From: a virus
DNA length: 64,000 nucleotides
Direction: 5' to 3' (one strand)
Virus record (IMG/VR): IMGVR_UViG_3300037222_000100
Coordinates: 62,001-126,000 of that record
How positions within the stretch are numbered: position 1 is the stretch's first letter; every line of letters begins with the position of its first letter. Below, piece after piece: positions 1 through 43,231 of the stretch. Under the pieces are notes generated by a model that was not told the origin of the DNA, did no database searches, and was given only the letters and a program-made list of their open reading frames with translations. Both the position numbers and the translations under genes were made by a program.

Positions 1-2397
1 CTGCGTGTACCTGTGTTCAACGACCGTACTATCTCCTGCCTCGATGGCTCCATCTCCAAACAGCCACTCGCGTGAGATGATCGACGCAGTACCGTCTGTG
101 GATTCATCAATGAATTCGAAGGTGCTAGGGTTCGTGCCATTGATGGTGAGTTTTGCGGTCGGCCCAATCTTGCCCGTGAGCTTTTCCTCAGGAAACACGA
201 GACGCCCTAGCTGTGCGTATCGAGGGATGATCTTTGGACTTCTGATCGTGGCGTTCTGCCGCAGCGCTCGACCGCGTAGCTGTAGCTCTTTGCCACGCGG
301 CGAGAGAAGAATACCCTTGCGATTGACGTTTACGATCTCCCGGAAGTCGGTCCAGGGAGCATAGTTGCTCTTCCATGGATCGTCCACGACTGATCGTGCG
401 CTCCATTGCACGGCTCGCTCGAAGATCGAGACGCTATCGACCCACCAAGTAGAAGCCACTTTGGTCGGCTGGAGAATCTGAAGGGCATAGCGACCCGTCT
501 GGAGGATCAGGTTATCCGGAATGCGCAAGATGACCTCCTGCCATTGATTCGTTTCGAGTTCGGGGATACCGAGCCTGTAGACAACGCCCTGGTCACTCAC
601 GAGGTTAGCGATGATGTTGCTCTCCATGACCTCATCGATGCTCGTGTACCCTTTGCTTGGGAAGAACGGCGGAAACAGGTGCGGACTAGGCAGCGTCGGC
701 GCATGTACGGTTTCGACTCTTTCGACCTGCCTCGGTTCGCCCGCGAACCAGAGGTTGAAACGAATCTCGAATTGCGAGAAGTCAACGACTTCGAAGAGGT
801 TGGTTTCGAGCCCAACGTTGTTGGTTGTACCGTCTGTGTCTACACGGAAGCTTTCGCCACTGGTTGTACGAGCTTTGTCTCGCGTGAGTCGCAGCGCTTT
901 GGATTCTGCGGGGTACTGCTTGAACCCTTGGTCCCAGAGTTCTTCGTTGCCCGTGAAGCTGGCAAAGAGTTGCGCGCCATCGACGGGTGTGCGGCTCTCC
1001 AGCGGGGCACTCTCGTATTCGGCGAAGCATACGCTCCGGGGCCTGATATTTTGGACATAGGCATCCGCATCCCCTAGGGTGGCCTGCCAACCGACGCGCC
1101 CCTTGCGCCTGCGGAAGATGCCGTCATCATCGATGACCGTTGAATCGAAGATGGGCTCCTGGATAACCGTTTTGTCGTTGTTGAGACGATAGATGCGAAG
1201 GCGTGCGGTTGACCCCGCTAGCGATGCAACCAATAGGTAGTTAGCGTTGCTATCGAGCGGTTCTGGGAGTTTCGGGAACACGTAGCCAGGACTTGTGGAG
1301 TTGGCCATGGTGATACTCGTTTTGACGGCATCCCATTTGAGCGTGAAGAAAACCCAACTCTGCTCGACGGGGTTTTCAACCGCGATACGCTCAAGGTCCT
1401 CCATCGTCTCTAGGTGATCAAACTGTTCCATGGGGCGTTTGTCGAATTCGCCCACTGTACGAGGGAGGAACTCGACAGTACCTAGATCGGGCTGAGGCTT
1501 ACCGTCGAGGTCAGACATAGTGATCCCAATGAGGTCTAGCTGGTTCTGGAAGATCATCGACTCCTCGCGGAAGAAGAGTGTGATGCTGTTGTCGTGCAGC
1601 GCTGACCCCGTATTGAAGGCAACCCCGAACTCCGTGTCGATTGGCGTCGGATCGTTGATCCCTGGCAATGGTGACGCTCGCCAGAGTGTGCTCTGGATGA
1701 AGAGAGGTCCGCTAGAGACGTTGCCATCGAGCGGCGTTGGTTTGCGGAGTCTACCGTTCCAGTTATCGAAGTCCACTGTGCTCACGACCCAACCCGGCTT
1801 GGCGGTCGGGGCAAGAACGAGCTTGAGGCCCATGATGATGAGTGAAGTGGGTTCATTGGCCACGACCCTGAAACGAACGCCGGTGATCTTCGACAGATCG
1901 ATTGCGTTCTGCTGGAATGCAGAACGCAAAACCCGGAATTTGCAACTGCCTTCGATGAGCGCATCGAGGCTAGCTTTGAAGGTAACCGATGCCGTGACAG
2001 AAGCGTTGGAACAATGACCTTCCGGATCGGAGGTAAGTTCGATGCGACTCTGGTTCGTTTCGATCCCCGCGAGCGGGAAGTCAGGCAACGAGAAGGTGAT
2101 GTAGTCGCTATCTGAGAAGTCCGTTTCCAGATCAAGAGGGTGGTCTGGCGTAGCTGACTCCAAGAACGTCAGTTCTTCTGTCGTGTCGAGTTTGAGCGCC
2201 GGATACTGGGCAACGGTTGGCTGGAACCCAAAGATGCCCTCGCTCCAGCGCTCATTCGAATCGGCCATGAAAGTACGAATGTCAACGTGCCTCTGGTAGG
2301 GGAAATGTTGGCGCGTTTCTTCGTCGTAAGCGTCATAGTTGATCCAGGCGTCCAGGTCGAACTCCTCGTGCAGCGGGATGTTAGAGCGTTCGGTCAT
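1..2397 (-). CDS. Large tail fibre/adhesin-like virion protein, C-terminal PKD domain, truncated by window edge
   Basis: The minus-strand frame is open without a stop from an ATG at 2395-2397 to position 1, giving 799 codons and no end in this window. The start abuts the TAA of the next gene. The body is beta-rich with jelly-roll-like segments and no recognisable enzyme motif. The last visible 40 residues match a PKD (polycystic kidney disease) Ig-like fold: a segment ending FEFIDESTDGTAS is followed by WLFGDG and then VEHRYTQ, the usual F-x-D-x-S, FGDG and H-x-Y landmarks. PKD domains bind surfaces and polysaccharides in secreted and viral adhesins. It lies downstream of the J-like baseplate gene, which suits a fibre or receptor-binding protein. 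The family of the main body is unknown. Confidence 0.75.
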   Translation of the reverse strand, partial: MTERSNIPLHEEFDLDAWINYDAYDEETRQHFPYQRHVDIRTFMADSNERWSEGIFGFQPTVAQYPALKLDTTEELTFLESATPDHPLDLETDFSDSDYITFSLPDFPLAGIETNQSRIELTSDPEGHCSNASVTASVTFKASLDALIEGSCKFRVLRSAFQQNAIDLSKITGVRFRVVANEPTSLIIMGLKLVLAPTAKPGWVVSTVDFDNWNGRLRKPTPLDGNVSSGPLFIQSTLWRASPLPGINDPTPIDTEFGVAFNTGSALHDNSITLFFREESMIFQNQLDLIGITMSDLDGKPQPDLGTVEFLPRTVGEFDKRPMEQFDHLETMEDLERIAVENPVEQSWVFFTLKWDAVKTSITMANSTSPGYVFPKLPEPLDSNANYLLVASLAGSTARLRIYRLNNDKTVIQEPIFDSTVIDDDGIFRRRKGRVGWQATLGDADAYVQNIRPRSVCFAEYESAPLESRTPVDGAQLFASFTGNEELWDQGFKQYPAESKALRLTRDKARTTSGESFRVDTDGTTNNVGLETNLFEVVDFSQFEIRFNLWFAGEPRQVERVETVHAPTLPSPHLFPPFFPSKGYTSIDEVMESNIIANLVSDQGVVYRLGIPELETNQWQEVILRIPDNLILQTGRYALQILQPTKVASTWWVDSVSIFERAVQWSARSVVDDPWKSNYAPWTDFREIVNVNRKGILLSPRGKELQLRGRALRQNATIRSPKIIPRYAQLGRLVFPEEKLTGKIGPTAKLTINGTNPSTFEFIDESTDGTASIISREWLFGDGAIEAGDSTVVEHRYTQ

Positions 2398-4734
2398 TTA
2401 GTAGGTGAACCAATCCAGGTCTTCGACCACGAAGTCATTGCGGTCAGTATTTACATCGTCAGCACCCGTCTCGATGTAAAGCGATGTGTCACTTGCCTGC
2501 GTGTAGGTGTTGCGGATGAACGCTAGCTCGTTGAGGCCCGCGAAGTAAGCGCGGTTGTCTTCGAGGAGCGCACTCAGTTCCTTGTATTCGTGACGACAGG
2601 TAACCCAGAAGAACATGACTGGCATTGACTGATCCAGGATGATCGCCTGCCTGTCTAGTCCTGATACGGCGATGCTTGGGTTGCCTTCGAATGTGGGCGT
2701 GCCCTCGACAGGGTAGTTTTCCTGATTGTGAGCGTTGAAAGCAGCTTTCTGTCCAAGCAGCGTAAGCGGGTGTGCCCGTGCAGCGGGAGGCTGGAGGTAA
2801 GTGTTGATCGTGAGGTTGATCCTTTCCAGCGTTTCGGGGTCCACCTTATTGGCAGCGGGTCCGGCGATAGCGGGCGGCGGTTCAGGATGTTCTGGAGACA
2901 GCGGTCCTTGCTGGAGGCCCGCGAGGAGTGGTTTGTACGCGAGATTGAGTGCGTCGTATGCTACGCCTACGCGCTTGGCCACGAAGGCTGGCGTGCTGAT
3001 TTCTGCGAGGAATGGGGTAGCTACCCAGTCAGGGAAGAGCTTGTACTGTGTCGGCTTCTGATAGTCGCCCGGATCATAGGGTCGAGCTTGAAGTTGACTG
3101 AACTCGATCTTGACGAACTTGGCAACGATGGGTTCTGGTAGCACATACGTCGTCTTGACGGCAGTCATAAAGGACTGCGGGACGTGAATCCATAGCTTCT
3201 GCTCCCACTGTTCGTCCGTCATTTCTCCTTCTTCCTCGCTGCCGGTGAGGTCTGTCGTGTAATAGACATTGAAGGCCACGCCTGGCGTGATCGGATCGAG
3301 GAGTACTGAGTCGATGACAACGGTATCGTCTTCAACCTCTGGCTCACGAATTTCGACGGAGCCAGAGCGACCGCGCTGATTTTCCCACTTCGAGCTAGGG
3401 CTGTCGCCATCGATATAGCTCGCGGCGACGAGTCCGCTGTTGACCATGGCTCCGTCGAGATAGAACGTATGCGCTGGCGTTTCTACATCGTGCAGATCGG
3501 ACGGAAGAGGGATCACAACGCCCACAGAGGTCGTTCCTGAAGCCACAGGTGTGAGCGTGACCGAGAATCGCGTCCATTCGCTGGTGATTTCCACTCGTAC
3601 TTCTTCATAACCAACTTCGCCATCGCCGATGACGAGTGCCACTTTGAAACCAGGTCCTATGGTCCGCGCCCAGATCGAGAACGTAATCGGTTTGTTCATG
3701 CCAACCTGGATTTCGTCCTGGTAGGCTCCTTCGGGTTCGAAGTAGCGTTTGACCGGATGCTCGTGTGTATTCACTTCGAGGCAGTGCGTCCCGTGAGGCG
3801 TTTCGAGCGTGTTGATGACGTTGAGAGTGGCCAGAGAATCGTAGTCGGAGAACGCGAGGCGTGCGTGAAGTTTCTGACGGAATTCCCCCGCTTTGATTTC
3901 TTCGACAGTAAAGGGTTCGACGGGTGTGAGGTCAGCTAGCGGTGGTGTGACTGTCCAGAGAGCCGGGGGCTGACCTACGATGTCATACTCGAAGCTTGGG
4001 TTCGTGATGCGATTGATCGTGCCGTACACGGGAACCTCCGGGAACGGGCGTACATCGGAGTAGTGACTAGTGACTGCAAAGCTCGATGGCTGTGGCGCAG
4101 AGAGCCAGTAGCCCGTCTCGACGTTGCCCCCGACTGGAGCTTGTGCTGAGGTATGAACCGCAACAGAGCGGTAAGGGTCCCCCAGGAAGTCCGTGCCGCT
4201 GTCGGCGGTAAGGCCGAGGAGTCGGAAGCAGAACGAGCCGGAGGGGCTGAGAGGGGTCTTCCCGTCGCTCTGGAAGCCTTCTACGAACCCCGGCAGTGGG
4301 TTGGGGTGCGCATAGAAGACATCTTCGATTCCGGACGCCGCCTGAAAGCCGATTCGTAGCTGTGATACGTCTGTGGTCATGCTGGCGTCTACGGGAATCT
4401 CCTTGTCCAGGATGACATCCATCCAGACCTGGCCATCAGCCTGCGCCCCGACGACAGTGCCTTTGGCTAGCGAGGTCCAGCCAGACCCAAAGAAGTACTC
4501 ATCGATAGTCCAATTCAACGTGGCGATTTTCTCCTGGCCTGCCGCTATAGCCACGAGAAGTTGAAACCCAGAAAGGCTAGGAAAGCGCTGCTCGTCGCTG
4601 CGCGTACCGTGTCGATAATCTTCCGGAAGCCGGAAGGTTTGGTAGTGGAAGTCGGGACCAGCAGAGAGCGTCGCCGTCACGACGTTCTGATCGATCACCA
4701 CTCCACTGTATTCGGCGCAAACGTTCAGCATCAC
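2398..4734 (-). CDS. Baseplate/fibre protein with carbohydrate-binding jelly-roll domain
   Basis: About 778 aa. The first codon of the open frame is GTG at 4734 and an in-frame ATG follows at 4731; either could be used. Residues about 240-440 resemble a CenC-like CBM4_9 module: NPSFEYD near the start, FSIWARTIGPG in the core, then TRFSVTL and FYLDGAMV strands. A second segment, about residues 490-590, is discoidin-like, with FVKIEFSQL near its end. These are carbohydrate-recognition folds typical of phage adhesins. The gene sits between two other large adhesin-like genes downstream of the baseplate genes. A role in host-surface binding is inferred. Confidence 0.7.
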   Translation of the reverse strand: MMLNVCAEYSGVVIDQNVVTATLSAGPDFHYQTFRLPEDYRHGTRSDEQRFPSLSGFQLLVAIAAGQEKIATLNWTIDEYFFGSGWTSLAKGTVVGAQADGQVWMDVILDKEIPVDASMTTDVSQLRIGFQAASGIEDVFYAHPNPLPGFVEGFQSDGKTPLSPSGSFCFRLLGLTADSGTDFLGDPYRSVAVHTSAQAPVGGNVETGYWLSAPQPSSFAVTSHYSDVRPFPEVPVYGTINRITNPSFEYDIVGQPPALWTVTPPLADLTPVEPFTVEEIKAGEFRQKLHARLAFSDYDSLATLNVINTLETPHGTHCLEVNTHEHPVKRYFEPEGAYQDEIQVGMNKPITFSIWARTIGPGFKVALVIGDGEVGYEEVRVEITSEWTRFSVTLTPVASGTTSVGVVIPLPSDLHDVETPAHTFYLDGAMVNSGLVAASYIDGDSPSSKWENQRGRSGSVEIREPEVEDDTVVIDSVLLDPITPGVAFNVYYTTDLTGSEEEGEMTDEQWEQKLWIHVPQSFMTAVKTTYVLPEPIVAKFVKIEFSQLQARPYDPGDYQKPTQYKLFPDWVATPFLAEISTPAFVAKRVGVAYDALNLAYKPLLAGLQQGPLSPEHPEPPPAIAGPAANKVDPETLERINLTINTYLQPPAARAHPLTLLGQKAAFNAHNQENYPVEGTPTFEGNPSIAVSGLDRQAIILDQSMPVMFFWVTCRHEYKELSALLEDNRAYFAGLNELAFIRNTYTQASDTSLYIETGADDVNTDRNDFVVEDLDWFTY

Positions 4735-4755
4735 ACATTAGGGGGAAGAAGTGGT

Positions 4756-6753
4756 CTACGGCGATACATTGCGACCGATGCGCAGGTTGCGTACCTCAAC
4801 GCTGTAAGGAGTAAAGCTTCCATCCGCTTCTAGGAACACGCCAGGGCGACGTATGAACTCGATTCGGATGAATCGTGTGAAGATCATGCTGCCGAGGGCG
4901 TTCTCGACGTTGAGAGACACGAGACTCCAGTTGTTCTCGTGGGTCGCATCGTAATGCAAGCTGAGCACTGATGAGGCTTCACGTTCGTTGACGTAGGTGA
5001 CGGGCACAAAGCGACGCGCTGGAGCGCCGTCGAGCAGATCGTAGCTGACCAAGATGTCGTGCGGCTTCTTCGTTGCTTCAAAGACGATGAAGTTGACGCC
5101 CTGTACCTTGCCCAGATCGATCTCTAGGAAGTCTTCCCCTTCTGGACGCTCTAGAGAAGACCAGAAAGGAGCCGTTTCGGATGGGGCTCCCGAGATGGTC
5201 GTAAGCGTTTGATAGTCCACTGGGTAGATACCATTGACGAGGGGTACCGCACCTGCCTGTGTGGTTAGCGGTTCTGGTGGATCGACAGGTCCGTCTACGG
5301 CCTTGAATTCCTCGGTGGTGGTGTTGAAGGTGGCGAGGAATGGGAAGAGCGCACGTTGCGCAGGAGAGTAGATGCCAATATGTTCGTCTTTGTAGTTGTC
5401 TTGAACCGTGGGCCACAAGACAGTCGCATAATCAGGGTCGGTCAACGCAGCCTCGGTGTATGCGACTGCTGTACTGATATTGTGGAAATTGACGTAATGA
5501 GACTGCTGTGCGTTGAGGGATACAGGACCCTCGTGCTCGATTCCGGGTTCGATCCAGTGCGTTGCATCAACCGGTGGCCATGGCAGACCGCGCCTACCTG
5601 TGACGTAGCGCAAGACCTCGATGAATTCGGAATCTGCGAAGGACGCGCTCGGTATCTGACGCTTGGTGATGCCCGGAGCTTTGCCGGGTGTTACGATGGC
5701 CGTCATCGGCTTGATGTTGTCGATAGCAGCCTGCGCGTAGTACCAGTCTTCGACCGGGATAATCGCTGTCTCGCCATCAGCAGAGACACCGACCTGTCCG
5801 ACTTCTACTTCAATCTCAACGAGATGTTCTTCGAAATCCGCAAGAGAGTTTTGCACAACAAGGATTTCCGGAATGGGCCTATCTGCCAGTTCGCCCGTGA
5901 AGCGGACGGTAATGGGGTTACCGGGAAGAGGTCCACCTTCGGTCACGACGTTGTGAGAGCCCACGACAGATAGGGCTTCGAGCGCTTCGCGAACTTCTAT
6001 GAAGTCGGCATTGAATTGAAGCAACCCGGTAATGGTCGTGTTCTGGGGACCACCTTCTCCGTTTGCCCCCATTGGGATAGCAAGCCGGAAGGTACCCTGG
6101 AGCGGATTACCTAGAATCGAGAGCGTCTGCTGTGAACTTTGTGGTCGCTCTTGACGCGGGAGAAGAATGACCTCCTCGGTCGATTTGGTCACCCCGATGA
6201 AATCGATCCCAAGTGGGTCATCAGAGTATTTGTCGTACAGCGCGCGGTAATTCTCTACCACTTCCACGGCATGATCGAGGCCGGACTTGGCCGCAAGCGT
6301 AAGGCCCAGAAGCGTGCCGCCAGCACGAATGGCCTTGAGATAGTTGATGGCGCGATTCTTGTAGGAAGCATCCGATTCCTGAATCTTCTCCCACTTAGCA
6401 TTCGAGAGAAGCCCCTCGGTATCGTCCTCGTACGTCTCGAAGGCAAGGCGAGCAAAGGAAAACGGTTCTGCATAGAGGGCGTCGAGTTCTGTCGTACGCA
6501 GACCATTAGCTTCGACGGCAAGTCGAGCTTCGAGGAAGTTCTTCTTGAGTCCACCCACTCCAGCGGGACCCAGTAGCGTGTACATGATCGCGACGAGGTT
6601 AGAATCAAGCGACTTGTTATAGAGCGATTCCGGGAAGGCATCAAGGTAGTTGATAGGGTGTTTGGGTCCACCCTGCGGCTCGATGAAGAACTGCTGGTTG
6701 ATGACACCCGTAATGTCAGGCGGTTCGACTGTGCTGTTGATCGGTTCTGCCAT
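4756..6753 (-). CDS. Baseplate-associated protein with repeat module and F5/8-like C terminus
   Basis: The start is ATG 6751-6753 (MAEPINSTVEPP), overlapping the TAA of the upstream HNH gene in a TAATG junction; the frame remains open upstream to 6789. The protein is 665 aa. Residues about 30-190 are helical and charged. Residues about 215-300 carry a module beginning GNPLQGTFRL and ending ITVRFTGEL, also seen in the neighbouring J-like protein. The C-terminal 140 residues look discoidin-like (FLEIDLGKVQGVNFIVFE, then FTRFIRIEFIRRPG). It probably links the baseplate rim to fibres. Confidence 0.65.
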   Translation of the reverse strand: MAEPINSTVEPPDITGVINQQFFIEPQGGPKHPINYLDAFPESLYNKSLDSNLVAIMYTLLGPAGVGGLKKNFLEARLAVEANGLRTTELDALYAEPFSFARLAFETYEDDTEGLLSNAKWEKIQESDASYKNRAINYLKAIRAGGTLLGLTLAAKSGLDHAVEVVENYRALYDKYSDDPLGIDFIGVTKSTEEVILLPRQERPQSSQQTLSILGNPLQGTFRLAIPMGANGEGGPQNTTITGLLQFNADFIEVREALEALSVVGSHNVVTEGGPLPGNPITVRFTGELADRPIPEILVVQNSLADFEEHLVEIEVEVGQVGVSADGETAIIPVEDWYYAQAAIDNIKPMTAIVTPGKAPGITKRQIPSASFADSEFIEVLRYVTGRRGLPWPPVDATHWIEPGIEHEGPVSLNAQQSHYVNFHNISTAVAYTEAALTDPDYATVLWPTVQDNYKDEHIGIYSPAQRALFPFLATFNTTTEEFKAVDGPVDPPEPLTTQAGAVPLVNGIYPVDYQTLTTISGAPSETAPFWSSLERPEGEDFLEIDLGKVQGVNFIVFEATKKPHDILVSYDLLDGAPARRFVPVTYVNEREASSVLSLHYDATHENNWSLVSLNVENALGSMIFTRFIRIEFIRRPGVFLEADGSFTPYSVEVRNLRIGRNVSP

Positions 6754-30830: not shown

Positions 30831-31592
30831 ATGATGGCCATTATCACTCCGCAGGGGCATGCTCTAGGTTGGAATCGACCGCTTCCTGGGCTCACATATC
30901 CGACAGCCGATCTTTCCGGCGTGACGATCCTGTCAGAGGTTGATCCTAGACCACACATGCCGCCCGCCTTGAATCAGCTAAAACTCGGTTCGTGTACGGC
31001 GAATGCCACCAACCGCTGTTTCCGTTATGACTCGATCAAGGACGGCAAAGACTGCGGAGAGCTTTCACGACTGTGGACATACTTCTTCGAGCGCCAGATC
31101 GAGGGCACTCTCAATCAGGGCGACTGCGGAGCCATGGGCCACGACGCCTTCACCGTCGCGAAACATGGAATCCCAGATGAGACGCTTTGGCAGTACGACA
31201 TCAGCAAGTTCGAAATCAAACCGCCTAACAAGCCTCGTGCTTACACCCTGACCAAGCAGGTCAAGGCCGTACCGCAATCGCTTACTGCAATTCAGCAAGC
31301 TCTATCGGCGGGGCAGACGATTCCGTTCGGCTTCACGGTCTACTCCAGCTTTGAGTCAGAACAGGTGGCCAACACGGGTATCATGCCGATGCCGAAGCCC
31401 AACGAGGAAGTCCTTGGAGGGCATGAGGTTCTCGCTTGCGGCTATCTCAAGAAGTACCCGCACTACCTACTCGTCCTCAACAGTTGGGACGTATCGTGGG
31501 GACTCAACGGCTACTTCTTGATGCCGGTGTCGTTCATCCTGGACTCGCACTACGCCAGCGATCTGCGCACTATCGCGCGCCCCATCGCCTAA
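30831..31592 (+). CDS. Papain-like (C1A) cysteine peptidase
   Basis: 253 aa. The papain triad is visible: NQLKLGSCTANA with Cys55 (and Gln49 as the oxyanion residue), GGHEVLACGY with His198, and NSWDVSWGLNGYFLMP with Asn217. The N-terminal 45 residues resemble a short pro- or linker region with the D-x-R-x-x-x-P-P segment common in microbial C1A proteins. No signal peptide is seen, so it likely acts inside the cell or in the virion. It sits alone on the plus strand between capsid-associated genes. Two ATGs (30831, 30834) are in frame. Confidence 0.92.
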   Translation: MMAIITPQGHALGWNRPLPGLTYPTADLSGVTILSEVDPRPHMPPALNQLKLGSCTANATNRCFRYDSIKDGKDCGELSRLWTYFFERQIEGTLNQGDCGAMGHDAFTVAKHGIPDETLWQYDISKFEIKPPNKPRAYTLTKQVKAVPQSLTAIQQALSAGQTIPFGFTVYSSFESEQVANTGIMPMPKPNEEVLGGHEVLACGYLKKYPHYLLVLNSWDVSWGLNGYFLMPVSFILDSHYASDLRTIARPIA

Positions 31593-32424: not shown

Positions 32425-33516
32425 TTACAGCGTCCAGGTGCCAGGTGCGCCGGTTCCGAGGCCCGTGATGTCGAGCTTCGAAGGTGCAGCGTTGCTTGAC
32501 GCCTTGAGGATGCGAGACAGTCCACGCGGGTTGAGGATAAGCATTCCGACAAGCTCGTCCATGACCCATCCCTTGTAGAACTGCTCGACCTGATGGTTCT
32601 CCTCGACATCGAGAGAGTACATGACAGGGAAGACCCCGATGAACTCCGGCTCGGCTGCGAGGAAGACCTCACCCTGAGGGATGATGATCGAACGCTGGAT
32701 TTGGAACTCGCCGAAGGACGTAATACGTCCGCCTGCGAAGACCTCATCCTTGAAGCGGAACCCTGTGGCGTTGAGGTCCCAGTTGTAGAGGTCGCGAATG
32801 TCTGCCGGGTGGGCAAGCACGCGACGTGCCTCTAGCTGGTTGATCTCGATCTGAGTTACCGCGTTGTAGAAGTCAGCGGGCTCCAACGGGTTACCGGCTC
32901 CGAGGAGAACGGTGTGCTCGTTAGGCTCTGCTTCCGGTCCTGCTGCGATCCCAACTGCGCGACCACCAGTAGGTGCGAGGCCAACGACGTTGTTGGTAAG
33001 CGCTTCGCCGAGTCCTTTGATGGCCTGCTCAAGAAGTAGGACTAGACGTGCGTCCTCCTGCTTCTGGATGGCCTGACGGGACTCGTCCTGCGCGTATTCA
33101 ACCGCGTTGACTCGCAAGTAGTAGAGGTCCTCCTTGCGGATGCGTGGGAACGTCGCCAAACGGAACAGAGCAGGGAATGCCTGCTTGCCCTCGAACGGCG
33201 TGATCTTGACCTCGGCGTCAGTGCTGTTCAGCACGTACGCACGTCCAAGGTCGTCCAGGATGTCGTAAGGCATGAGGGGTCCGCGCTCTAGCGTATCCTC
33301 CACGAGGACGTTACGAACGATACCCTCGTACCTTAGACGAATCTGAATCGGGCCGATCATGCCCTGGCCGATACGACGCATCGCGTTACCCTTGTCGGCA
33401 AGGATAGCTTCGAGGCGTCCGACCTTCTGCTTCTTGGAGAGCTTCGGAAGGTCCTTTAGCTTCTCCTCGTAGTCACCAGAAGCGACTACCTGACGTTGGA
33501 AATTCTCATATCCCAT
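32425..33516 (-). CDS. Major capsid protein, HK97-type
   Basis: 363 aa. Features of HK97-fold capsid proteins of myoviruses: an N-terminal helix (YEEKLKDLPKLSKKQKVGRL), a strand pair with IQIRLRYEGIVRNVLVEDTL, the spine-helix region with EYAQDESRQAIQKQEDARLV, an A-domain with PLEPADFYNAVTQIEINQLE and AHPADIRDLYNW, and a C-terminal GWVMDELVGMLILNPRG. It assembles the icosahedral shell. GAGGCGAGACAGAC precedes the ATG. It lies downstream of decoration and protease genes, as expected, and just before the bidirectional terminator. Confidence 0.85.
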   Translation of the reverse strand: MGYENFQRQVVASGDYEEKLKDLPKLSKKQKVGRLEAILADKGNAMRRIGQGMIGPIQIRLRYEGIVRNVLVEDTLERGPLMPYDILDDLGRAYVLNSTDAEVKITPFEGKQAFPALFRLATFPRIRKEDLYYLRVNAVEYAQDESRQAIQKQEDARLVLLLEQAIKGLGEALTNNVVGLAPTGGRAVGIAAGPEAEPNEHTVLLGAGNPLEPADFYNAVTQIEINQLEARRVLAHPADIRDLYNWDLNATGFRFKDEVFAGGRITSFGEFQIQRSIIIPQGEVFLAAEPEFIGVFPVMYSLDVEENHQVEQFYKGWVMDELVGMLILNPRGLSRILKASSNAAPSKLDITGLGTGAPGTWTL

Positions 33517-33531: not shown

Positions 33532-34140
33532 TTAGACTAGTAGCTTGAATCGCAGAACGCTTGGGTTGCTGTAGTCAACAACTTCCGCGATCTTGGTTTC
33601 GTTGGTACCTTTAGTTACGCCCAGGCGTCCATCTTTGCCGACGTACAGGTACACAGGCTTTCCTTCTTTGTTTTCCGCAACCTTCGTAGAAAGTTCCGTT
33701 GAGTCGAAGCCCGGTGCGATCAGATCGTACACGGAGTCCGGTCCCTGCCATGCAGAGATTTGGTTGGACTGTTTGATGTTGTCAAACGTTCCACCGACCC
33801 ACTGCCCAAGGAGTCCGTAGACACCCGTTGCAGTCCCGGCGTCGCCGATGGCGAAAGCTTCGCCTACCGTCTTGACGAGGACTAGTCCAGGTACGAGTGA
33901 ACCTTCAAATGTGAAGGCATCTCCCGAACGCGAGAACGGGGCTGCTGCTGCTCCACCGACCGGTGTGACTCCCGCTTCGTCCGTTTTCAACGGAACGCGA
34001 ATGCCACCCGTGGTGTTACGCAGCGAAGGATCGATGATCCCGGCGAACGGTGTCGCCTGGGTCTGTCCCTCTACAACCCTGAGAAGGCGCTTCTGGGCCG
34101 TCAGGTTGATGTTGCTTGCGTCACCGTAAATTACTTGCAT
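33532..34140 (-). CDS. Head decoration/capsid-stabilising protein
   Basis: 202 aa, beta-rich and Gly/Ala-rich (GGIRVPLKTDEAGVTPVGG, PGLVLVKTVGEAFAIGDAG). Two barrel-like halves are suggested. It sits between the protease-scaffold gene and the capsid gene, the usual place of decoration proteins. AAGGA lies 11 nt before the ATG. The call rests on composition and gene order; a direct family match was not recognised. Confidence 0.6.
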   Translation of the reverse strand: MQVIYGDASNINLTAQKRLLRVVEGQTQATPFAGIIDPSLRNTTGGIRVPLKTDEAGVTPVGGAAAAPFSRSGDAFTFEGSLVPGLVLVKTVGEAFAIGDAGTATGVYGLLGQWVGGTFDNIKQSNQISAWQGPDSVYDLIAPGFDSTELSTKVAENKEGKPVYLYVGKDGRLGVTKGTNETKIAEVVDYSNPSVLRFKLLV

Positions 34141-34234: not shown

Positions 34235-36568
34235 TTAGCGTGTGAACAGACCGGAGTCGAGCGTCTCGTCTGTGACCGAAACCGACTCGGACTCATCGCT
34301 CGAAACACGTTCGAATGCGTGACCATCCTGGTCTACCATCCGACGATCTCCTGCCGTATGCTGGCCAAAGCCGCTTGGCATACGAGCCACGCCTGCCGTG
34401 CGCTGCTTGGCAAGCTTCTGCGTAGCCGCAGTCTTGACACGCGAGAGCATGTCTAGCTGTGCCGTGATCTGCTCGTCGTCCTGAGCGTCAAGGTCCGCGA
34501 TGCGGTTGTACTTCTCGTCCGGGCCGATCATGCCTAGCTCTGTTTCCAGATCAGTGAGCTTGATCGCCGCGATGATATGCGAAGTGAATCCCTCGGTCGC
34601 GATGGACTCCGGCGTAACCGGGTCCTGCTGACGTAGAACCTTGTTGCCCTCTGTGCCAGTCCACTGACTCGTCGGTCCAGAGTTGTTCTCCGGAGTTGCC
34701 GCTGGCTGGAGCACGTCAACGCGCTCGCCAAATGACTCGGCAACGGGCTGAACGCCCTTGACGGTCGAACCTCCGCTGAGGCCAGGCTGGTCGTAGAACG
34801 GCTTTGCGTCATACGCCTGACGGACAGACGAGTCCTTGTTCTGGTTGCCTTCGAGGCTATCAGTGGTTACTCCATCCGTGAAGCCCTTCTCGGTGCCATC
34901 GGAATCGCCATAGGTCGCGGTCGGGCCGCTGTCCTCGGTCGTTTTCGTAGCGTCGAAACCAGCGTCATCTGATCCCTCAGATGCCGTAGGCAGACTCTCA
35001 GTCTTGTCGGCGTCAACATCTGTGACGCCTGTCGTGCCTACGCTGGTAACGTCTACCTGTGCGTCGGCCTTGGATGCTGCATCGTTGCTAGGCTCGATGA
35101 CCCCACCAACGCCAGTAGCGTCAACCCGCGCGTCAGGCGAAGCCTCCGGGCCAGTAGGACCATCAGCGATCTTCGTGCTCATGGTATCTCCTTGATGGTT
35201 GTTATTGGCTGCCTCGATGAGGTCCTGCGCTGTGCGCATTGTTGCCGTGACAGGCTTAGCCGGGTTCTTCACCACAGTGGTCGTGACTGGCTCGTTCGTA
35301 GCAGGCTTTGTGGTCGTTTTGATCGGCCTTTCCTGCTGGTTGATTCGAGCAGCCACCTTTGGGTTCAGCTTTGGTTGCCAACGCATGTCACCCATTACAC
35401 TCGCGGATGCAGCGCTATTTCTAGCAGTCAAGAAGCTACCCTCCTGCTTGGGCGGTGCGTGACCTGCGGGCTCTGCGGACGGTGCTGCCGGTGTCTCTGC
35501 GCCCTGTGCCAGCGCATTATCCTGCTGAACCTCTTGCTCGCTGCCCTGCGCCATGTCGCCTTGAAGCTCTTGGGCCTTGGTCAGGTCGGGGTTATCCATA
35601 CCCTTGGGCGGCTCGACATATCCACACACATCACACGTCTCGCCCTCCATCGTCTCGCCGCAGATTGGGCAAGCGTGCTCTTCACGCATGGTGTCTACAT
35701 CTTCGGGTGCCGATGGCAGGAAGGACTGAGGTAGTGCATTCTCAGCCGTCTTGCCCAAGCCCTCGTCGTTGACGCTCGCACGGATTTCACGGGCGAGCGC
35801 TGTCTCGTCAGCGGGATCGAACACGCCGCTGATCTCGAAGAAGTGAATGCCGTAGCAGTTCTCGTAGCTCTTACGCGAGATGCGTTTGCCATCCGCCGTC
35901 TTGTAGTCGTGATGCGCACCCTTCATGACGATGTGCGAGCAGTACTCGTCGGGGTTGGTCGCCACATGACCGCAGTGCGAACACTTCGAGCGCTCGACAT
36001 CGCAGCCCATGGAGAATCCGTCGAGGTCGCCACTACGAACGGCCTTGGCGTACGTCGGAAAGGTCTTGGCGTCGATCTCCAGGAGTAGCTCGACCTCAGT
36101 CGGCGGAGCGTGCTCAGGGTCCATGCTCTCGCTGCCCCAGTAGGTGTCACCACTCGCTGCGGTGTGCTCTATCGGAAGGACTTTGAGCTTGCTGTCTACT
36201 ACGACGCCGCGAGCGCGAGACGGATCGGAGTTGTTGTGATCGATGAAGTTTGGCTTGCCGATGAAGGTCGCGAATCCAAACTGCTTGTCGCCATCCGCCG
36301 CCTCGACCGTAAAGCCGGTCGCAGACTGCTTAGCGTGACGGTCGAAGACCTCAGAGCCTCCAGCAAGCTCGACAGACGGCCAGCCATCGTGGTTCTTGTT
36401 GACGCGGCTAGAGATCGCACGCAGGCGTACGTACATGTAGCCATCGTCGGTGCGGTAGTCGTGGAAGTCACTCAGCTTGTCGAGCGTGGCTGTGCGACGC
36501 CGCGAAGGCGAGCCCTTGACCTCAAGGACCTCCGCATCTTCGAAGCTCGCGAACTTGGTGAAGCTCAT
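34235..36568 (-). CDS. Prohead protease fused to scaffold-like region, with zinc ribbons
   Basis: 777 aa from ATG 36566-36568; the frame is open to 36625 but ATAACTACTGAG precedes this ATG. Residues 40-260 form a herpesvirus/T4-type prohead protease: FIDHNNSDPSRARG (candidate His111) and DGFSMGCDVE (candidate Ser186). A C-C-C-H zinc site is inserted at 196-212 (CSHCGH, YCSH). A second ribbon, CPICGETMEGETCDVCGY, sits at about residues 300-320. From 330 onward it is acidic, low-complexity and helical, as expected for a scaffold or delta domain. It should cleave itself and the head proteins during maturation. Confidence 0.8.
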   Translation of the reverse strand: MSFTKFASFEDAEVLEVKGSPSRRRTATLDKLSDFHDYRTDDGYMYVRLRAISSRVNKNHDGWPSVELAGGSEVFDRHAKQSATGFTVEAADGDKQFGFATFIGKPNFIDHNNSDPSRARGVVVDSKLKVLPIEHTAASGDTYWGSESMDPEHAPPTEVELLLEIDAKTFPTYAKAVRSGDLDGFSMGCDVERSKCSHCGHVATNPDEYCSHIVMKGAHHDYKTADGKRISRKSYENCYGIHFFEISGVFDPADETALAREIRASVNDEGLGKTAENALPQSFLPSAPEDVDTMREEHACPICGETMEGETCDVCGYVEPPKGMDNPDLTKAQELQGDMAQGSEQEVQQDNALAQGAETPAAPSAEPAGHAPPKQEGSFLTARNSAASASVMGDMRWQPKLNPKVAARINQQERPIKTTTKPATNEPVTTTVVKNPAKPVTATMRTAQDLIEAANNNHQGDTMSTKIADGPTGPEASPDARVDATGVGGVIEPSNDAASKADAQVDVTSVGTTGVTDVDADKTESLPTASEGSDDAGFDATKTTEDSGPTATYGDSDGTEKGFTDGVTTDSLEGNQNKDSSVRQAYDAKPFYDQPGLSGGSTVKGVQPVAESFGERVDVLQPAATPENNSGPTSQWTGTEGNKVLRQQDPVTPESIATEGFTSHIIAAIKLTDLETELGMIGPDEKYNRIADLDAQDDEQITAQLDMLSRVKTAATQKLAKQRTAGVARMPSGFGQHTAGDRRMVDQDGHAFERVSSDESESVSVTDETLDSGLFTR

Positions 36569-36618
36569 CTCAGTAGTTATGCGGTAGCAAGGCCGCAAAC
36601 CTATGGTGCCTGAAGCTC

Positions 36619-36647
36619 TTGACACGGAGTAGCTTATCCTGTAGACT
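36619..36647 (+). promoter_or_regulatory. Sigma70-like promoter, leaderless
   Basis: TTGACA (36619-36624), 17-nt spacer, TAGACT (36642-36647). The ATG is at 36655, 13 nt from the start of the -10 box. Confidence 0.85.
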
Positions 36648-36654
36648 ATCGATC

Positions 36655-37233
36655 ATGAAAATCAAGAGCCTCATCTCCGCTGCCGTTTTGTCCTTGGTCT
36701 TCGCTGCCCCCGCGATTGCGAGTGCCAACCCCGAATTGTCTGTGACGCCGCAATCGGTCCTCAAAGGGGAAGCCGTTACGTATCACGCCCAGGGCGTCTC
36801 TGGCCTCTTTGTCGTCAATCTCAAACCCAGCGCATGTAAGCTTCATCGTGCCGAAAACGGTGACCTCGGCAAATGGGGACGACTGACGACCGAAACCGAA
36901 GGCACCATCCCACCTGAACAATACGAATCCTTGGGTGTCTATCATGTATGTCTCTACCCCGGAGAAGCCAATAGCGCTGAACTTGGGGCAGAAGCGACAT
37001 TCGAAACGGTCACGCTTCTTCCGTCCCCTGCCCCAACGCCAAGTCCCATAGTGACCTCTGTAGCCACACCTACTGTGGCTTCCGAACCCACAACGGGACC
37101 TGTGGCTGCGCGGGTAACTCACGCTGCTGTGCCATCGAAGCGCGCAAAGGCCGTAGCCAAGTGCAAGCGCCTCAATCGACACAAGCGGAAGAAGCTAGCT
37201 CGCTGTCTGCGTAAAGCTAAGCGTCTTCACTGA
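36655..37233 (+). CDS. Secreted protein with Cys/Lys/Arg-rich tail
   Basis: 192 aa from ATG 36655, fixed by the promoter. A Sec signal peptide is clear: basic MKIK, hydrophobic core (AAVLSLVFAAPAIA), cleavage after ASA near residue 24. An Ig-like beta domain with one Cys pair follows to residue 110, then a Pro/Ser/Thr linker. The C-terminal 30 residues contain KCKRLNRHKRKKLARCLRKA. This kind of tail is frequent in secreted proteins of Thermoleophilia-like actinobacteria, so the gene may have been captured from the host. It is embedded on the plus strand in the head cassette. Confidence 0.75.
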   Translation: MKIKSLISAAVLSLVFAAPAIASANPELSVTPQSVLKGEAVTYHAQGVSGLFVVNLKPSACKLHRAENGDLGKWGRLTTETEGTIPPEQYESLGVYHVCLYPGEANSAELGAEATFETVTLLPSPAPTPSPIVTSVATPTVASEPTTGPVAARVTHAAVPSKRAKAVAKCKRLNRHKRKKLARCLRKAKRLH

Positions 37234-38249: not shown

Positions 38250-38540
38250 TTACACGGACCCTGGAATGTGAACGATTCGCGGTGCCGCGCCACTAGGCCG
38301 GTCCTCGCGCATGATCTTCTCGCGCTGCTCCTGAGGCATGGCGCGAAGCTCACTCAACGTGTACTGGCGCTTCTGGTCCAGAGGACGATTGCAGCTAGGG
38401 CAAGTGCCTCCGGGATAACCGTTGAAGCCACAGATGGCGCACTCGACGGTCGGGGGTCCCTGACGCGCTTCCTGCTCCTCTCTGATGATCTGTGCCCGAA
38501 CCTCGGCCGGGACTTGTGATGTGTCTGGTGTATCTGACAT
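38250..38540 (-). CDS. Zinc ribbon protein of the head module
   Basis: 96 aa. CAICGFNGYPGGTCPSCNRP is a compact zinc ribbon (two C-x2-C pairs, residues about 34-52). Flanking helices are charged (EVRAQIIREEQEARQG; PQEQREKIMREDRP). It lies between two head-region genes and may bind the giant zinc-ribbon protein or prohead DNA. The function is unknown. Confidence 0.7.
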   Translation of the reverse strand: MSDTPDTSQVPAEVRAQIIREEQEARQGPPTVECAICGFNGYPGGTCPSCNRPLDQKRQYTLSELRAMPQEQREKIMREDRPSGAAPRIVHIPGSV

Positions 38541-38551
38541 GACTTCCTTTC

Positions 38552-41500
38552 TTAGACTCCTAGGAACAAGTCTGCGTCGCGGACTCGTTCTGGATCGGTC
38601 TTACTGTCGTAACTGTCTCGGGTCTTGTAATGCGTACCCTCAAGATCAAGCATGTCGCTGTTGCGCGCCATACCATCCTCATCTATTAGCTCACGTTGCT
38701 CGCGAGGAGTAAAGTGCTTGCCACCCTCTCGTTGCATGCGCTCTTGCTTGTTGTGAGCTAGACGTGCGCGAATCTCTTCGCGTCGAGAGTCCTGGATCGA
38801 GCCTATGTCGCGGGACTGAGCGGCAGCCATGCTCTGGCGTCGAGCGCCCAAGAAATCCTCTGCGTCATCGTCTTCCATGACCCAACCAATATCAACGCCA
38901 GCCTCAGCGCGACCACCCTTTTCCTCGGTGACCCAGTTGTGCCCACAACGGAAGCAGTCGTGTTCAGTCGCGTCCGGATTGATCATGGACGACGTGTGTT
39001 CGTTGTGACCGCAGCGCGGGCATGAATCATCATCGACGCTGGCCTGTGAAGGCTGGAGTTCGCTGTTGGCGCGCTCGTCTGTCGTCTGTCCTGATGGGGG
39101 TACTTGCTCCTCGCCGGGCGTCTGTGAGCCTGGCGGAGGTTCGTTGTTGCGGTCGTCGGCATTCTGTGCGAGCGGTTCGAACGTGAGTTCCTGCATTTCC
39201 ATGTCCTCCTTGGAAATCGGGACGCTGCTCTTCAGCGTGTTCGAGTCGTTGCCGTACATACCGAGCAATGTCACGTCCAAGCCGTCTGGCTTGACGCGCT
39301 CAACACGAATCACATCCGGCACGGAGAAGGACGGATTCTTCATCGTGTACTCCTGCTTTGCCTGGATCGGATTTCCTTCGGTGTCCTTCCATGTCAGCGA
39401 TGAATCTTCGTCGCCGCCTTGATTGAGCGCAGCATCCTGTTCTGCGGCAGGTACATTGACCGGCTGGGCATCCTGCTCTGGCCCAGGTCCAGCTACGCGA
39501 GCGATGGCGCTGTTTCCAGCCGCGCTTGTGTCATCGAGTATGCTAGGACCTTTCCAGACGTTGCCACACGCATGGCAACGAGAGTGGTTGTCTGGATCAC
39601 CAACCATGCCGGTCGTCGCAGAGTTGCACACGGGGCAACGCGGTGCGATGTTGTCGGCTGCTGTATGACCGGGCATGAGCTTGCTGCCCATCTCCTCTTC
39701 AAACTCGCGGTAGGGCTCTGCCTTTTCCTTTTGCGCACAAATAGGACAATCTGGGTGAAGCCCATGCACATGCTGACCTTTTTGATGCTGTGTTTCTAGA
39801 TCGTCGGCTGCGGTGAAGTCGGGCAAGAACGATGACATAGGCTGCATCGGCTGTCCGCCTGGTTCTCCACCCATCCCCGGAACAGGCATGCCTCCGGGGG
39901 CGGGTTGCTGCGGTGCTGGCGGCTGTGTCTGCTCTTCCGGCGTGACTGTTGGGGGTACTGTAGGATTCTGCTGAATTTCAGCGAGAATCTTGGCGTACTC
40001 GGGGTTGCCGGGGTCGAGAGGTACGTTCGGTACCTCATTGACACGACCGTTCTCGATAAGCCACTGCTGGACTGCGGCGATCTGCTCAGGCGTTACTGGA
40101 CCCTGATGATTGGCCGAATCGACCAGCGAGGCAATCAAGTCTAGATGAGTAAAGCTCTGCATCGGTGCTGGCATACTTGGTCCTCCTATTTGCTGTCCTT
40201 GTGGTGTTGCTCCGCCCATGGCGTTTTCCTTGGCTCCGCACTGCGGGCATGTGCCATCTGCTGTCGTGACTCCGCCGCAGTTCTTGCAATGACCCTGCTG
40301 CGCTCCCCCGCCTGGAGGAGCTTGAGGGGTTGGTTGCAAACTTGGATTGAGTGCGGTCGGATCGAGCATCTGCTGCTGTTGCTGAAGTCCGCCCATCTGC
40401 AAAGGGGGCACGATGGACTCCTTGGTCTGACCTTCGCGACTTGTCGGGGCCGAAAGGATATCCTCGACCGTGGTGCCGCACTGGTTACATGCTGGACCGA
40501 TGATCTGGCCACTCTTGCATGCGGGGCACATGACAGGCTCGGGCTCTTGGCGACGATCCGGACCGATGCGGCGCTCGCCGTACTGTTTCGCGCCCCATTC
40601 GTCCAATCCCTGATCGTAACGACGGCGCTCATCGGGAGATCGCACCGCGTCACCATCGGCGTAAAGGCCCGCATGAACGTGCTCTGGCTTCTTTTTCTGC
40701 TGGATGAAAATCTCAGCGACAGTAGGGTCGCCCTTGCCGAGGTAACCAGGGTTCTCTGCTTCTAGCATCTCGTGCAGACCCTTGAGCATAGGATCGTTTG
40801 CTCCCGACTCATCTGAGTGATAGAAGTGTTCGATGAGTGGCATGAGAAGCTTCATGCGCTCGATGGCAGGGCTGCTCTCGGAGAAGCCGTGGCTTTCCTC
40901 GTCGCGTTTGTCTTTGTGCGGGTCCTCACCCGACTTACCGGAGTCTTCAAGGTTCGGGTTCAACGGGTTTTCTGGGCTCTTGTCCTGGTCGTTGAACTCT
41001 TTTTGATCTACGTCCTCTGGGTCGTCGTGCTTGACGCCCACGTCGGGATTGGAGGTCGGCGTTTCGTATTCTCCACCCTTGGCAATGAGCGCAATGAGTG
41101 GATCGGTGCTCGATAGCGGATTGAGAATGGTCGAATCGGGACCCGCTTGCCCCGGCGCTTCGCCTCCTCCGCCCGGCATGTGACGACCAAGGTCGCCGCC
41201 CATGAAGTTGCTTGCTGGACCAAGCGCTTTGCCCATCAGTCCACTTGCTGCGCCTCCTGCGGATGCCTCGCCGCCTACCGCACCGGCTGCTCCCACGCCC
41301 TCGGCTAGCTCAGGGAGCGCCAACAGTGCGGGACCTGCCGTCTTGATACCGCCCGCGTGCTCCTCGTATCCCTGATCACGATCTCTCAAAGACTGGTCCT
41401 GTTCGCTCTGTGACGGCGCGATATCCAACGGCCTGATGCCAGGAGGAGCCGGAGCTTCTTCGTTGCGAATCTTCTGTGCAAGTTCGACCATGAGGGGGCT

Positions 41501-43231
41501 ACGTGCGTTGGGGTCCTGCACAACCTGCGCAGCGGCCGGTAGGTGAGACGGATCATGGACCGAGACGACAACCGGCTTGCCGAACTCCGGGCTTTCGCGC
41601 AAGCCGTAGCGCTTGATCAACTCCGAGCCGTTACCTCTGACCGGGATGCCGTTGATGTGTGCATCAAGAAACGCAAGCGGCCCTTTGTGGTTGCCATGTG
41701 CGTTGTGGAGCCCCACGTCACTGGGCTGCACCATGAGAGAATGAGCCGGGGCGACGTTCTCGTCGGGACCCTTATCGAAATCGACATCCGCCTCGTGTGT
41801 CCACGGGAGATATGGGTCCATGTTGTTGGTGCGCTCTAGCTTTGGCATCGTCTTACTGAAGGAGAACGATTTGTCCTCTAACTCTTTCAGGCGCGGATCA
41901 GCGGCAATAAACGGTGAAGCATCTCGACCTGTCACCGTCTCGACCTCTCCAGTCGGGCGAATCTCCACTCCGGATTTCCAATCGACCAGGTGATGCGGGA
42001 TGCCTGCGCTTTCTACATACTGCGAGTGTGATGTGCCATGATTGAAACTTTCGTTGGGATCGACATTAGCGTCGCGAGGGTGATATGCCTTCCACGTATG
42101 GGGCTCACCGGCAATCATCAGACCTCGCCCCTGCCATCCGGGCTCCCACTGCATAGTGCTTGGCTGCGACTCAGGGGTGAGGCCCACGATGTCATCCATC
42201 TCGCTAGCAAACATCCGTTGCAATAGACCAGGCTCCTTGGGCGACTCGAAGGCCGGAGGAGTACGCCATGTCTCCTGATTCTGAAAGACGTTGGTTGGCT
42301 CAGGACGACTTGCCGGGGGTGTCGCTTGTTTGCACTGCGGGCAATACATCGTCCCATCAGAGAGCACGAGTGCATCGGACTCACAGGTCGCGCACGGGGC
42401 CTGCTGTGCGGCCTCGTGAGTGCTGCCCTGGCGCACAGGACCAAGCGCGCCAGGTGTCTCTATAAGACCCGGTGAAAAGCCATGCTCCATGGCGTGAGGG
42501 ACACGCTGCCATCCCTTCATGACGGCAGGGTCTTCCTCGCCGCGCACCGGCCAACTGTGATCACAGTGAACGCAGAAGATGTCTCCCTGATCTGGGTCTT
42601 GCATTACTTCGCCGCCGCAATTGGGGCAACGAAGATTGAGCATTGGATCGACAAGGGCCGCAAGTGCGCCTTGATGAGCCGGGCCTAGCGCAGGAAGGGT
42701 GGAAGGATTCTTCCAAGGACCCCGACCTTTTTCAAGGTGCCGAGGGTCAAGTAGCTCATCTGCTCCAGGCATGTCCTCCCACTCACCGCCATCGTATGGA
42801 ATGGTATAGCCACAATTGAGGCACTCACCATACCCGTTCATGGACGAGGGAACACGACACGATGGACAGGTGTGATTGGGGATCGATCCGCTCTCTGGGA
42901 TCGAAGTTCCATCTGGGAGTCTAAGATCGCTCTCGACCAAAGCTGCGAGGGTAGGCAAGTCTGTGACCTTGCCATGCATGAAGTTGTCGCGACGCCAGGC
43001 AGGCTGTTCTGGGTGCCCGCCCATGATGGTGCCCTCGCCTAGCGGGTTGCCTCCCTGGTCCTTCTGTGTGTCGCTATCAACCATGTCCCGGAGCGTGCCA
43101 TCGCTTTGAGTAGGGGACGGCTGATCGCGGAAAAAGCGCTTCCCACCACAATCCGGACAAGCAGTCGCGCCAGAGATATCGCCTGGCGAGAGGACGAAAT
43201 GGTGCGAGCAATCTTCACAGCTAACCAGCAT
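38552..43231 (-). CDS. Giant multi-zinc-ribbon head-region protein
   Basis: 1559 aa, the largest gene in the window. Eight zinc ribbons with paired CxxC motifs are visible near residues 5-28, 120-141, 198-222, 277-299, 900-917, 980-1000, 1205-1228 and 1403-1432, plus a half motif near 1160 (CPIC). Examples are CPNCGGEVMQ, CPACKSGQIIGPACNQCG and CKNCGGVTTADGTCPQCG. Between them are Pro/Gly/Gln-rich linkers, an Ala/Gly-rich helix near 640-690, and an alpha/beta part at about 350-600. The C terminus is charged and helical. No known family was recognised. It is encoded upstream of the protease-scaffold, which itself has zinc sites, so a prohead-internal role is plausible. Confidence 0.7.
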   Translation of the reverse strand: MLVSCEDCSHHFVLSPGDISGATACPDCGGKRFFRDQPSPTQSDGTLRDMVDSDTQKDQGGNPLGEGTIMGGHPEQPAWRRDNFMHGKVTDLPTLAALVESDLRLPDGTSIPESGSIPNHTCPSCRVPSSMNGYGECLNCGYTIPYDGGEWEDMPGADELLDPRHLEKGRGPWKNPSTLPALGPAHQGALAALVDPMLNLRCPNCGGEVMQDPDQGDIFCVHCDHSWPVRGEEDPAVMKGWQRVPHAMEHGFSPGLIETPGALGPVRQGSTHEAAQQAPCATCESDALVLSDGTMYCPQCKQATPPASRPEPTNVFQNQETWRTPPAFESPKEPGLLQRMFASEMDDIVGLTPESQPSTMQWEPGWQGRGLMIAGEPHTWKAYHPRDANVDPNESFNHGTSHSQYVESAGIPHHLVDWKSGVEIRPTGEVETVTGRDASPFIAADPRLKELEDKSFSFSKTMPKLERTNNMDPYLPWTHEADVDFDKGPDENVAPAHSLMVQPSDVGLHNAHGNHKGPLAFLDAHINGIPVRGNGSELIKRYGLRESPEFGKPVVVSVHDPSHLPAAAQVVQDPNARSPLMVELAQKIRNEEAPAPPGIRPLDIAPSQSEQDQSLRDRDQGYEEHAGGIKTAGPALLALPELAEGVGAAGAVGGEASAGGAASGLMGKALGPASNFMGGDLGRHMPGGGGEAPGQAGPDSTILNPLSSTDPLIALIAKGGEYETPTSNPDVGVKHDDPEDVDQKEFNDQDKSPENPLNPNLEDSGKSGEDPHKDKRDEESHGFSESSPAIERMKLLMPLIEHFYHSDESGANDPMLKGLHEMLEAENPGYLGKGDPTVAEIFIQQKKKPEHVHAGLYADGDAVRSPDERRRYDQGLDEWGAKQYGERRIGPDRRQEPEPVMCPACKSGQIIGPACNQCGTTVEDILSAPTSREGQTKESIVPPLQMGGLQQQQQMLDPTALNPSLQPTPQAPPGGGAQQGHCKNCGGVTTADGTCPQCGAKENAMGGATPQGQQIGGPSMPAPMQSFTHLDLIASLVDSANHQGPVTPEQIAAVQQWLIENGRVNEVPNVPLDPGNPEYAKILAEIQQNPTVPPTVTPEEQTQPPAPQQPAPGGMPVPGMGGEPGGQPMQPMSSFLPDFTAADDLETQHQKGQHVHGLHPDCPICAQKEKAEPYREFEEEMGSKLMPGHTAADNIAPRCPVCNSATTGMVGDPDNHSRCHACGNVWKGPSILDDTSAAGNSAIARVAGPGPEQDAQPVNVPAAEQDAALNQGGDEDSSLTWKDTEGNPIQAKQEYTMKNPSFSVPDVIRVERVKPDGLDVTLLGMYGNDSNTLKSSVPISKEDMEMQELTFEPLAQNADDRNNEPPPGSQTPGEEQVPPSGQTTDERANSELQPSQASVDDDSCPRCGHNEHTSSMINPDATEHDCFRCGHNWVTEEKGGRAEAGVDIGWVMEDDDAEDFLGARRQSMAAAQSRDIGSIQDSRREEIRARLAHNKQERMQREGGKHFTPREQRELIDEDGMARNSDMLDLEGTHYKTRDSYDSKTDPERVRDADLFLGV

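Follow-up and report, generated by a model that had tools for sequence, protein, structure and literature searches.

The T4 prohead protease cleaves after Glu, while herpesvirus assemblin cuts after Ala, often at A↓S (arrows mark known or candidate cuts); the C-terminal tail of the herpesvirus scaffold binds the capsid protein and is removed at maturation. T4 has processed core proteins, of which IPI is injected into the host (PMC9958956), and the core proteins of phage SPN3US are processed by the prohead protease gp245 (PMC10052503), so that fates of this kind for processed core proteins do exist in large phages.

For Bxz1-type phages, we found neither virion proteomics nor a cleavage motif in the open-access literature, where absence is not proof. 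HyRo, Skog, Phrappuccino, Phabba, and Rhodococcus phage E3 carry a 'LysM-like' gene directly before the protease, cement, and capsid genes, encoding a protein of 603-1337 aa (HyRo gp88, Skog gp157, Phrappuccino gp52, Phabba gp234, and E3 gp76; phrog_2940 and phrog_30974). This family occurs in 210 phage records, compared to 214 for the capsid protein family.

The head module of an uncultured phage

We analyzed a stretch of 64,000 nucleotides, hereafter the window (positions 62,001 to 126,000 of the IMG/VR record IMGVR_UViG_3300037222_000100, 167,869 bases in total). On its minus strand, an Ig-repeat protein (He_PIG) is followed by the zinc-ribbon protein P0001, a 96-aa protein, a 259-aa protein, the prohead protease P0005, the cement protein, and the major capsid protein:

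38552..43231, minus: zinc-ribbon head polyprotein P0001, 1559 aa, one open frame, with relatives
38250..38540, minus: 96-aa protein with one ribbon; present in L004, L005, and L007, none seen in L006 and L026
37430..38209, minus: Pro/Gly-rich 259-aa protein, position conserved
34235..36625, minus: prohead protease polyprotein P0005, 796 aa (phrog_18299, 5.5e-22; phrog_2774, 3.3e-47)
35933..35983, minus: C-x2-C-x10-C-x-H knuckle of P0005 (aa 215-231), inside the protease domain; motif recurs in other sequences
35624..35671, minus: paired ribbon of P0005 (aa 319-334), behind the protease domain
33532..34140, minus: cement protein (PF23968, 2.6e-9)
32425..33516, minus: major capsid protein (phrog_2522, 3.4e-92)

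An internal ATG, at MSFTKFASFED, probably marks the conserved start of P0005. The capsid protein shows up to 58% identity to those of the Ceeclamvirinae (Bxz1-type mycobacteriophages), Gordonia phage Skog, and relatives, which by sequence identity places it in the Bxz1 type. The portal gene (phrog_2833, 1.6e-154) and a probable terminase gene, the latter recognized by eye only, are found at a distance of some 85 kb in the same record.

Several further features of this genome were observed. An opposite-strand ORF in the head module (36619-37233, plus) begins with a signal-peptide-like sequence and is rich in Lys, Arg, and Cys at its end, and similar ORFs occupy the same place in L004, L005, and L007. 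A papain-family cysteine protease gene (30831-31592, plus; Peptidase_C1, 5.5e-12) adjoins the capsid gene on the opposite strand, and a similar ORF occurs in L007. At the C-terminus of both P0005 and a 332-aa near-portal protein (L016:18035-19033, minus), [DE]x[AG]LF follows an acidic stretch, an ending shared by the protease relatives, which is possibly a common C-terminal targeting signal. Finally, the first 60 bases of record G000 recur at 164963, near its other end, the next 2.9 kb not being identical in register; this is either an imperfect terminal repeat or an assembly artefact.

Cysteine ribbons of P0001

P0001 is encoded in one open frame on the minus strand, and the plus strand across 38552-43231 contains many stops. 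It contains 34 cysteines and 17 CxxC motifs; when the residues were shuffled 5000 times, such motifs averaged 0.74 and never exceeded 5. The 17 motifs form eight paired ribbons (Cys 5/25, 122/137, 202/220, 280/297, 902/915, 982/995, 1199/1219, and 1404/1426) and one orphan CPIC at aa 1162; the automatic pairing had coupled 1162 with 1199 and was corrected by eye, as the relatives pair the equivalent of 1199 with that of 1219. The features of the protein, from the N-terminus, are:

43148..43219, minus: ribbon 1 (aa 5-28), conserved in every relative having the N-terminus
42812..42868, minus: ribbon 2 (aa 122-140), within a cassette located elsewhere in L005
42563..42628, minus: ribbon 3 (aa 202-223); related ribbon in L007, degenerate in L006, absent in L026
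42332..42394, minus: ribbon 4 (aa 280-300), lineage-specific
41423..42202, minus: conserved middle domain (aa 344-603), no fold assigned
41132..41338, minus: Ala/Gly-rich hydrophobic segment (about aa 632-700); by eye, LysM-like proteins have one too
40478..40528, minus: ribbon 5 (aa 902-918), in an insert found only in P0001
40238..40288, minus: ribbon 6 (aa 982-998), conserved core
39737..39748, minus: orphan CPIC (aa 1162-1165), inside an insert bordered by FTAA and HTAA
39566..39637, minus: ribbon 7 (aa 1199-1222), conserved core
39173..39394, minus: small SH3/Tudor-like barrel (aa 1280-1353), from a model only
38945..39022, minus: ribbon 8 (aa 1404-1429), conserved core, RPB9/TFIIS-like
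38555..38722, minus: conserved C-terminal tail (aa 1504-1559), homologous to the LysM-like protein tail

The Pfam zinc-ribbon models match weakly (Auto_anti-p27, 2.4e-5, in P0001; DZR, 1e-4, in one relative), and we infer that the ribbons bind zinc. The initial annotation, made from the window alone, had described eight paired ribbons in a single frame and one more in the 96-aa neighbor, and both descriptions hold. It had also given the protease two ribbons; two zinc-type sites are indeed present, but only one is a paired ribbon, the other being the knuckle inside the protease domain. The linkers of P0001 are rich in Pro, Gly, and Gln, and the disorder proposed for them agrees with the AlphaFold model of the last third of the protein, in which linkers have pLDDT values below 45, and the ribbons and the small β-barrel about 60-80.

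Fold and family searches

Fold comparison of the last third gave weak Tudor/KOW-like matches for the barrel, none significant. The middle domain was modeled with a pLDDT of 58 and had no fold match, and we therefore make no claim about it. In the PDB sequence search P0001 matched generic ribbons only, among them a weak RPB9-type match of ribbon 8 (1qyp, E 0.005). No catalytic domain was detected in Pfam, PHROGs, PDB, or fold searches. The possibility that P0001 is a primase, polymerase, or other known non-structural enzyme was rejected, since Pfam and PHROGs return only zinc ribbons and the tail; a match to a primase or polymerase family, named beforehand as evidence against a head protein, was absent from all four kinds of search. 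No RNA element was found in the P0001 region.

These matches bear on the suggestion of the initial annotation that P0001 is ejected and inhibits host transcription, and on the idea that its ribbons would do so by binding RNA polymerase. The weak likeness of the last ribbon to RPB9/TFIIS-type ribbons and of the barrel to KOW/Tudor folds points in that direction. Nevertheless, the zinc ribbon is a generic module, a weak resemblance to polymerase subunits of eukaryotes and archaea tells little about a target in bacteria, and no finding ties P0001 to RNA polymerase, so that we consider this function very improbable.

Relatives in uncultured viral contigs

Close relatives of P0001 were found only in uncultured viral contigs of IMG/VR, namely L004, L005, L006, L007, and L026, with 43-61% identity in the best segments; L002 and L003 are copies of the window's own phage and are kept apart from these five. 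Among 50,697 phage records, no match was obtained with P0001 by tblastn or with the region by megablast, no relatives were found in GTDB genome contigs, and a second case of this ribbon architecture beside capsid genes was not found in the searched phage records and family libraries.

In all five relatives the ribbon gene lies just upstream of the head genes, and the gene order is the same through to the capsid protein. Three core ribbons are present in all aligned proteins and the N-terminal ribbon in all those having their N-terminus, giving a conserved set of three to four. The number of paired ribbons is four in L026, five in L006, seven in L007, and eight in P0001 (the last corrected by eye), and the alignment indicates that the non-core ribbons are lineage-specific cassettes on a conserved frame. 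P0001 (about aa 96-190) and L005 (aa 425-522) share one 98-aa ribbon cassette at 76.5% identity, which occupies a different site in the two proteins; duplication and relocation of this cassette are indistinguishable, as L005 lacks its N-terminus.

This pattern helps to weigh the idea of a pure scaffold for assembly: P0001 would be a long, flexible component of the core, its ribbons would only contact protein or DNA, and it would be degraded and lost at maturation, with nothing ejected. The low-complexity linkers, the capsid-side position of the gene, and the many candidate protease sites of the module (see below) are consistent with it, as is the digestion of T4 gp22, gp67, and gp68 to small peptides (PMC9958956). 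However, three to four folded ribbons and the middle domain are strongly conserved, and the cassettes differ between lineages, which fits cargo better. A pure scaffold is thus possible but rather doubtful.

A counterpart in cultured phages

The slot of P0001 matches that of the LysM-like gene upstream of the protease, with two small genes lying between in the window. The C-terminal tails are homologous: the HyRo tail reads RTAGRHYSPSEQAELI...LDLRGTHY and that of the ribbon family KHFTPREQRELIDEDG...LDLEGTHY, and the two align with an hhalign probability of 98.5% (E 4e-15, 55% identity over 42 columns). In addition, phrog_30974 matches the C-terminus of P0001 (E 0.001). Beyond the tail, no alignment of the ribbon family to LysM-like proteins is detectable.

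Where P0001 has ribbons, the LysM-like proteins have a SWIM-like CxC...CxH motif, which is not found in P0001. Likewise, Pfam finds no LysM domain in P0001 or its relatives. The HyRo protein has a Pfam LysM match and the 603-aa E3 gp76 has no Pfam match, indicating that this domain does not define the family. Given the unaligned body and the missing SWIM-like motif, P0001 is a tail-sharing counterpart rather than a full member of the LysM-like family.

Position and tail together indicate that P0001 is the counterpart of an already known, uncharacterized head-module protein and not an isolated oddity. The statement that no described phage head protein has this architecture must therefore be restricted: in the phage records and family libraries searched it holds for the ribbons, but the protein as a whole has a divergent counterpart in the Bxz1-type LysM-like protein. 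The proposed clustering with head genes is supported by the order kept in the relatives and by the counterpart that about 210 cultured phages have at the equivalent position, with a homologous tail. Beside their capsid genes, some 210 sequenced actinobacteriophages have a counterpart annotated merely as hypothetical or 'LysM-like', and the comparison gives the LysM-like gene a position-based identity and a conserved tail.

A giant protein upstream of the portal, HyRo gp80 (L008:68-3409) and L009:1706-4594, also contains TA sites of the kind described below (four strict ones in HyRo), and HyRo gp80 has paired Cys motifs (CSCG...CHCG). Zinc-type modules may thus be widespread in these head polyproteins.

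A candidate cleavage motif

A recurrent tetrapeptide (RTAG, KTAG, HTAA) was first spotted when reading the proteins and was then counted strictly as [RKH]TA[AG] against shuffles. It is 10-20-fold enriched in the head polyproteins of both the ribbon and LysM-like groups, a figure to be read with the motif having been identified after the fact and with sites shared by descent not being independent. The strict counts, found versus shuffled, are 14 versus 0.76 in HyRo, 5 versus 0.52 in Skog, 6 versus 0.46 in Phrappuccino, 5 versus 0.54 in Phabba, and 6 versus 0.30 in the window. Other proteins are at background (2 versus 3.7 in HyRo, 8 versus 5.2 in the window's genome). The strict motif is weak in L006 (2) and L007 (1, with 0.28 expected), where the looser [RKH]TA is clear (9 versus 1.3 and 8 versus 1.5, respectively). 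An unguided k-mer count also raises RTA, KTA, and TAG. Codons vary at the TA sites, which rules out a DNA-level origin and indicates a protein-level signal. P0001 has two strict sites plus FTAA and most of the window's signal sits in P0005, the enrichment being clear for both counted together:

41333..41344, minus: candidate site KTA↓G (aa 630-633) of P0001
39806..39817, minus: candidate site FTA↓A (aa 1139-1142) of P0001, left edge of the insert
39656..39667, minus: candidate site HTA↓A (aa 1189-1192) of P0001, right edge of the insert
36485..36496, minus: candidate site RTA↓T (aa 44-47) of P0005, right before the protease domain
35741..35752, minus: candidate site KTA↓E (aa 292-295) of P0005, right after the protease domain
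34349..34435, minus: three candidate sites, KTA↓A, RTA↓G, and HTA↓G, near the C-terminus of P0005

The placement of the motif suits a protease site. Both sites flanking the protease domain are kept in L004 and L006, and phage G gp19 has KTA↓A ahead of its protease domain. Ahead of the conserved tail stands RTAG in each of the five LysM-like proteins, KTAG in L006, LAG in L005, VAG in L007, IAG in L026, LSG in L004, and EGG in P0001. The inserts of P0001 and L004 start at FTA and finish in [HR]TAAD; the relatives show just one FTAAD at this place. Independent support comes from phage G, whose capsid protein is listed as nearest to the ones from Bxz1, Myrna, and E3: it has 282 aa and a mature length of 255 by N-terminal sequencing (PMC5646251), which puts Ala27 at P1 (RVALA↓QAMA). 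Taken together, the [RKH]TA[AG]-like tetrapeptide probably marks the cut site of the head protease.

The same observations bear on the alternative of a permanent, unprocessed part of the structure, located inside the head or at the portal vertex, in which the TA motifs would be linker motifs such as binding sites. P0001 itself has few strict sites and no Ala ahead of its tail, and its cleavage is a prediction. Against these points stand the motif on either side of the protease domain, its presence before the tail in five of five LysM-like proteins, and the Ala at P1 of the phage G capsid protein, and we regard permanence as unlikely.

Two other multidomain proteins contain similar sites. A 934-aa protein (L021:17187-19991, minus; G000 162887-165691) starts like a nucleotidyltransferase and has a 2'-5' RNA ligase-like domain beginning directly after IAKTA↓A and, by eye, an ADP-ribosyltransferase-like stretch; the TA sites seem to part its domains, as would be expected of a further head polyprotein. 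A 1149-aa fusion of YunG-like, GNAT acetyltransferase, and CCA-adding/HD domains (L016:1868-5317, minus; G000 1868-5317) has two xTA[AG]-type sites between domains.

Proposed role

We consider it slightly better than an even chance that P0001 is a tail-targeted internal core or cargo polyprotein of a Bxz1-type myovirus lineage, cut after Ala by the prohead protease, with its ribbon fragments retained and ejected, or else discarded. P0001 would be made together with the protease, cement, and capsid proteins from the LysM-like slot, as folded beads (the ribbons, the SH3-like barrel, the middle domain, and the Ala/Gly-rich hydrophobic segment) on disordered linkers. The conserved C-terminal tail would bring it into the prohead, and we hypothesize that the tail does so by binding the capsid. 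During maturation, the protease would cut P0001 and itself after Ala at sites resembling [RKH]-T-A↓[A/G/S/T/E]. The freed ribbon fragments would then stay with the DNA in the virion and be ejected, or be discarded as scaffold; the ribbons may bind DNA or host factors, and fragments may enter the host. Of the roles put forward in the initial annotation, an internal or scaffold protein is plausible and remains the best reading, whereas tethering of capsid, protease, and DNA and transcription inhibition after ejection are conjecture. The initial annotation mentioned neither the candidate protease sites nor the shared tail.

More broadly, and tentatively enough that we would not put it near an even chance, the giant head proteins found in Bxz1-type phages and in the window's lineage may be polyproteins whose exchangeable cassettes (ribbons in the latter; elsewhere LysM, SWIM, and perhaps enzyme modules) are separated by xTA↓ sites for a prohead protease specific for Ala. 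A few giant genes would then supply the head with a set of small cargo proteins to be packed and ejected into the host. If the candidate motif is right, giant low-complexity head genes would encode protease substrates, and an unexplored set of internal head proteins would become visible. The concrete candidate motif offered here for the prohead protease of Bxz1-type phages, specific for Ala, is the more general result and the part most worth testing.

Comparison with known systems

The proposed P0001 resembles T4 IPI-III and Alt, core proteins that are brought in through a short targeting sequence and cleaved by the T4 prohead protease (PMC9958956), but the T4 targeting sequence is N-terminal, the T4 proteins are small and separate, and no homology to P0001 was found. 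The proposed scheme also works like that of the ejection proteins of SPN3US and phiKZ, numerous internal proteins of large myovirus heads whose propeptides are cut at one short motif by the prohead protease (PMC10052503); they differ in cleavage after AXE, in mostly N-terminal propeptides, and in belonging to another lineage of capsid and protease. The assemblin and scaffold of herpesviruses resemble the proposal in cleavage after Ala and in the C-terminal tail, capsid binding by the phage tail being hypothetical. The nearest likeness by position and tail, the LysM-like proteins, shares with P0001 a large size, low-complexity linkers, TA motifs, and, by eye, an Ala/Gly-rich hydrophobic segment, and departs from it in having a SWIM-like motif, sometimes a LysM domain, and no ribbons.
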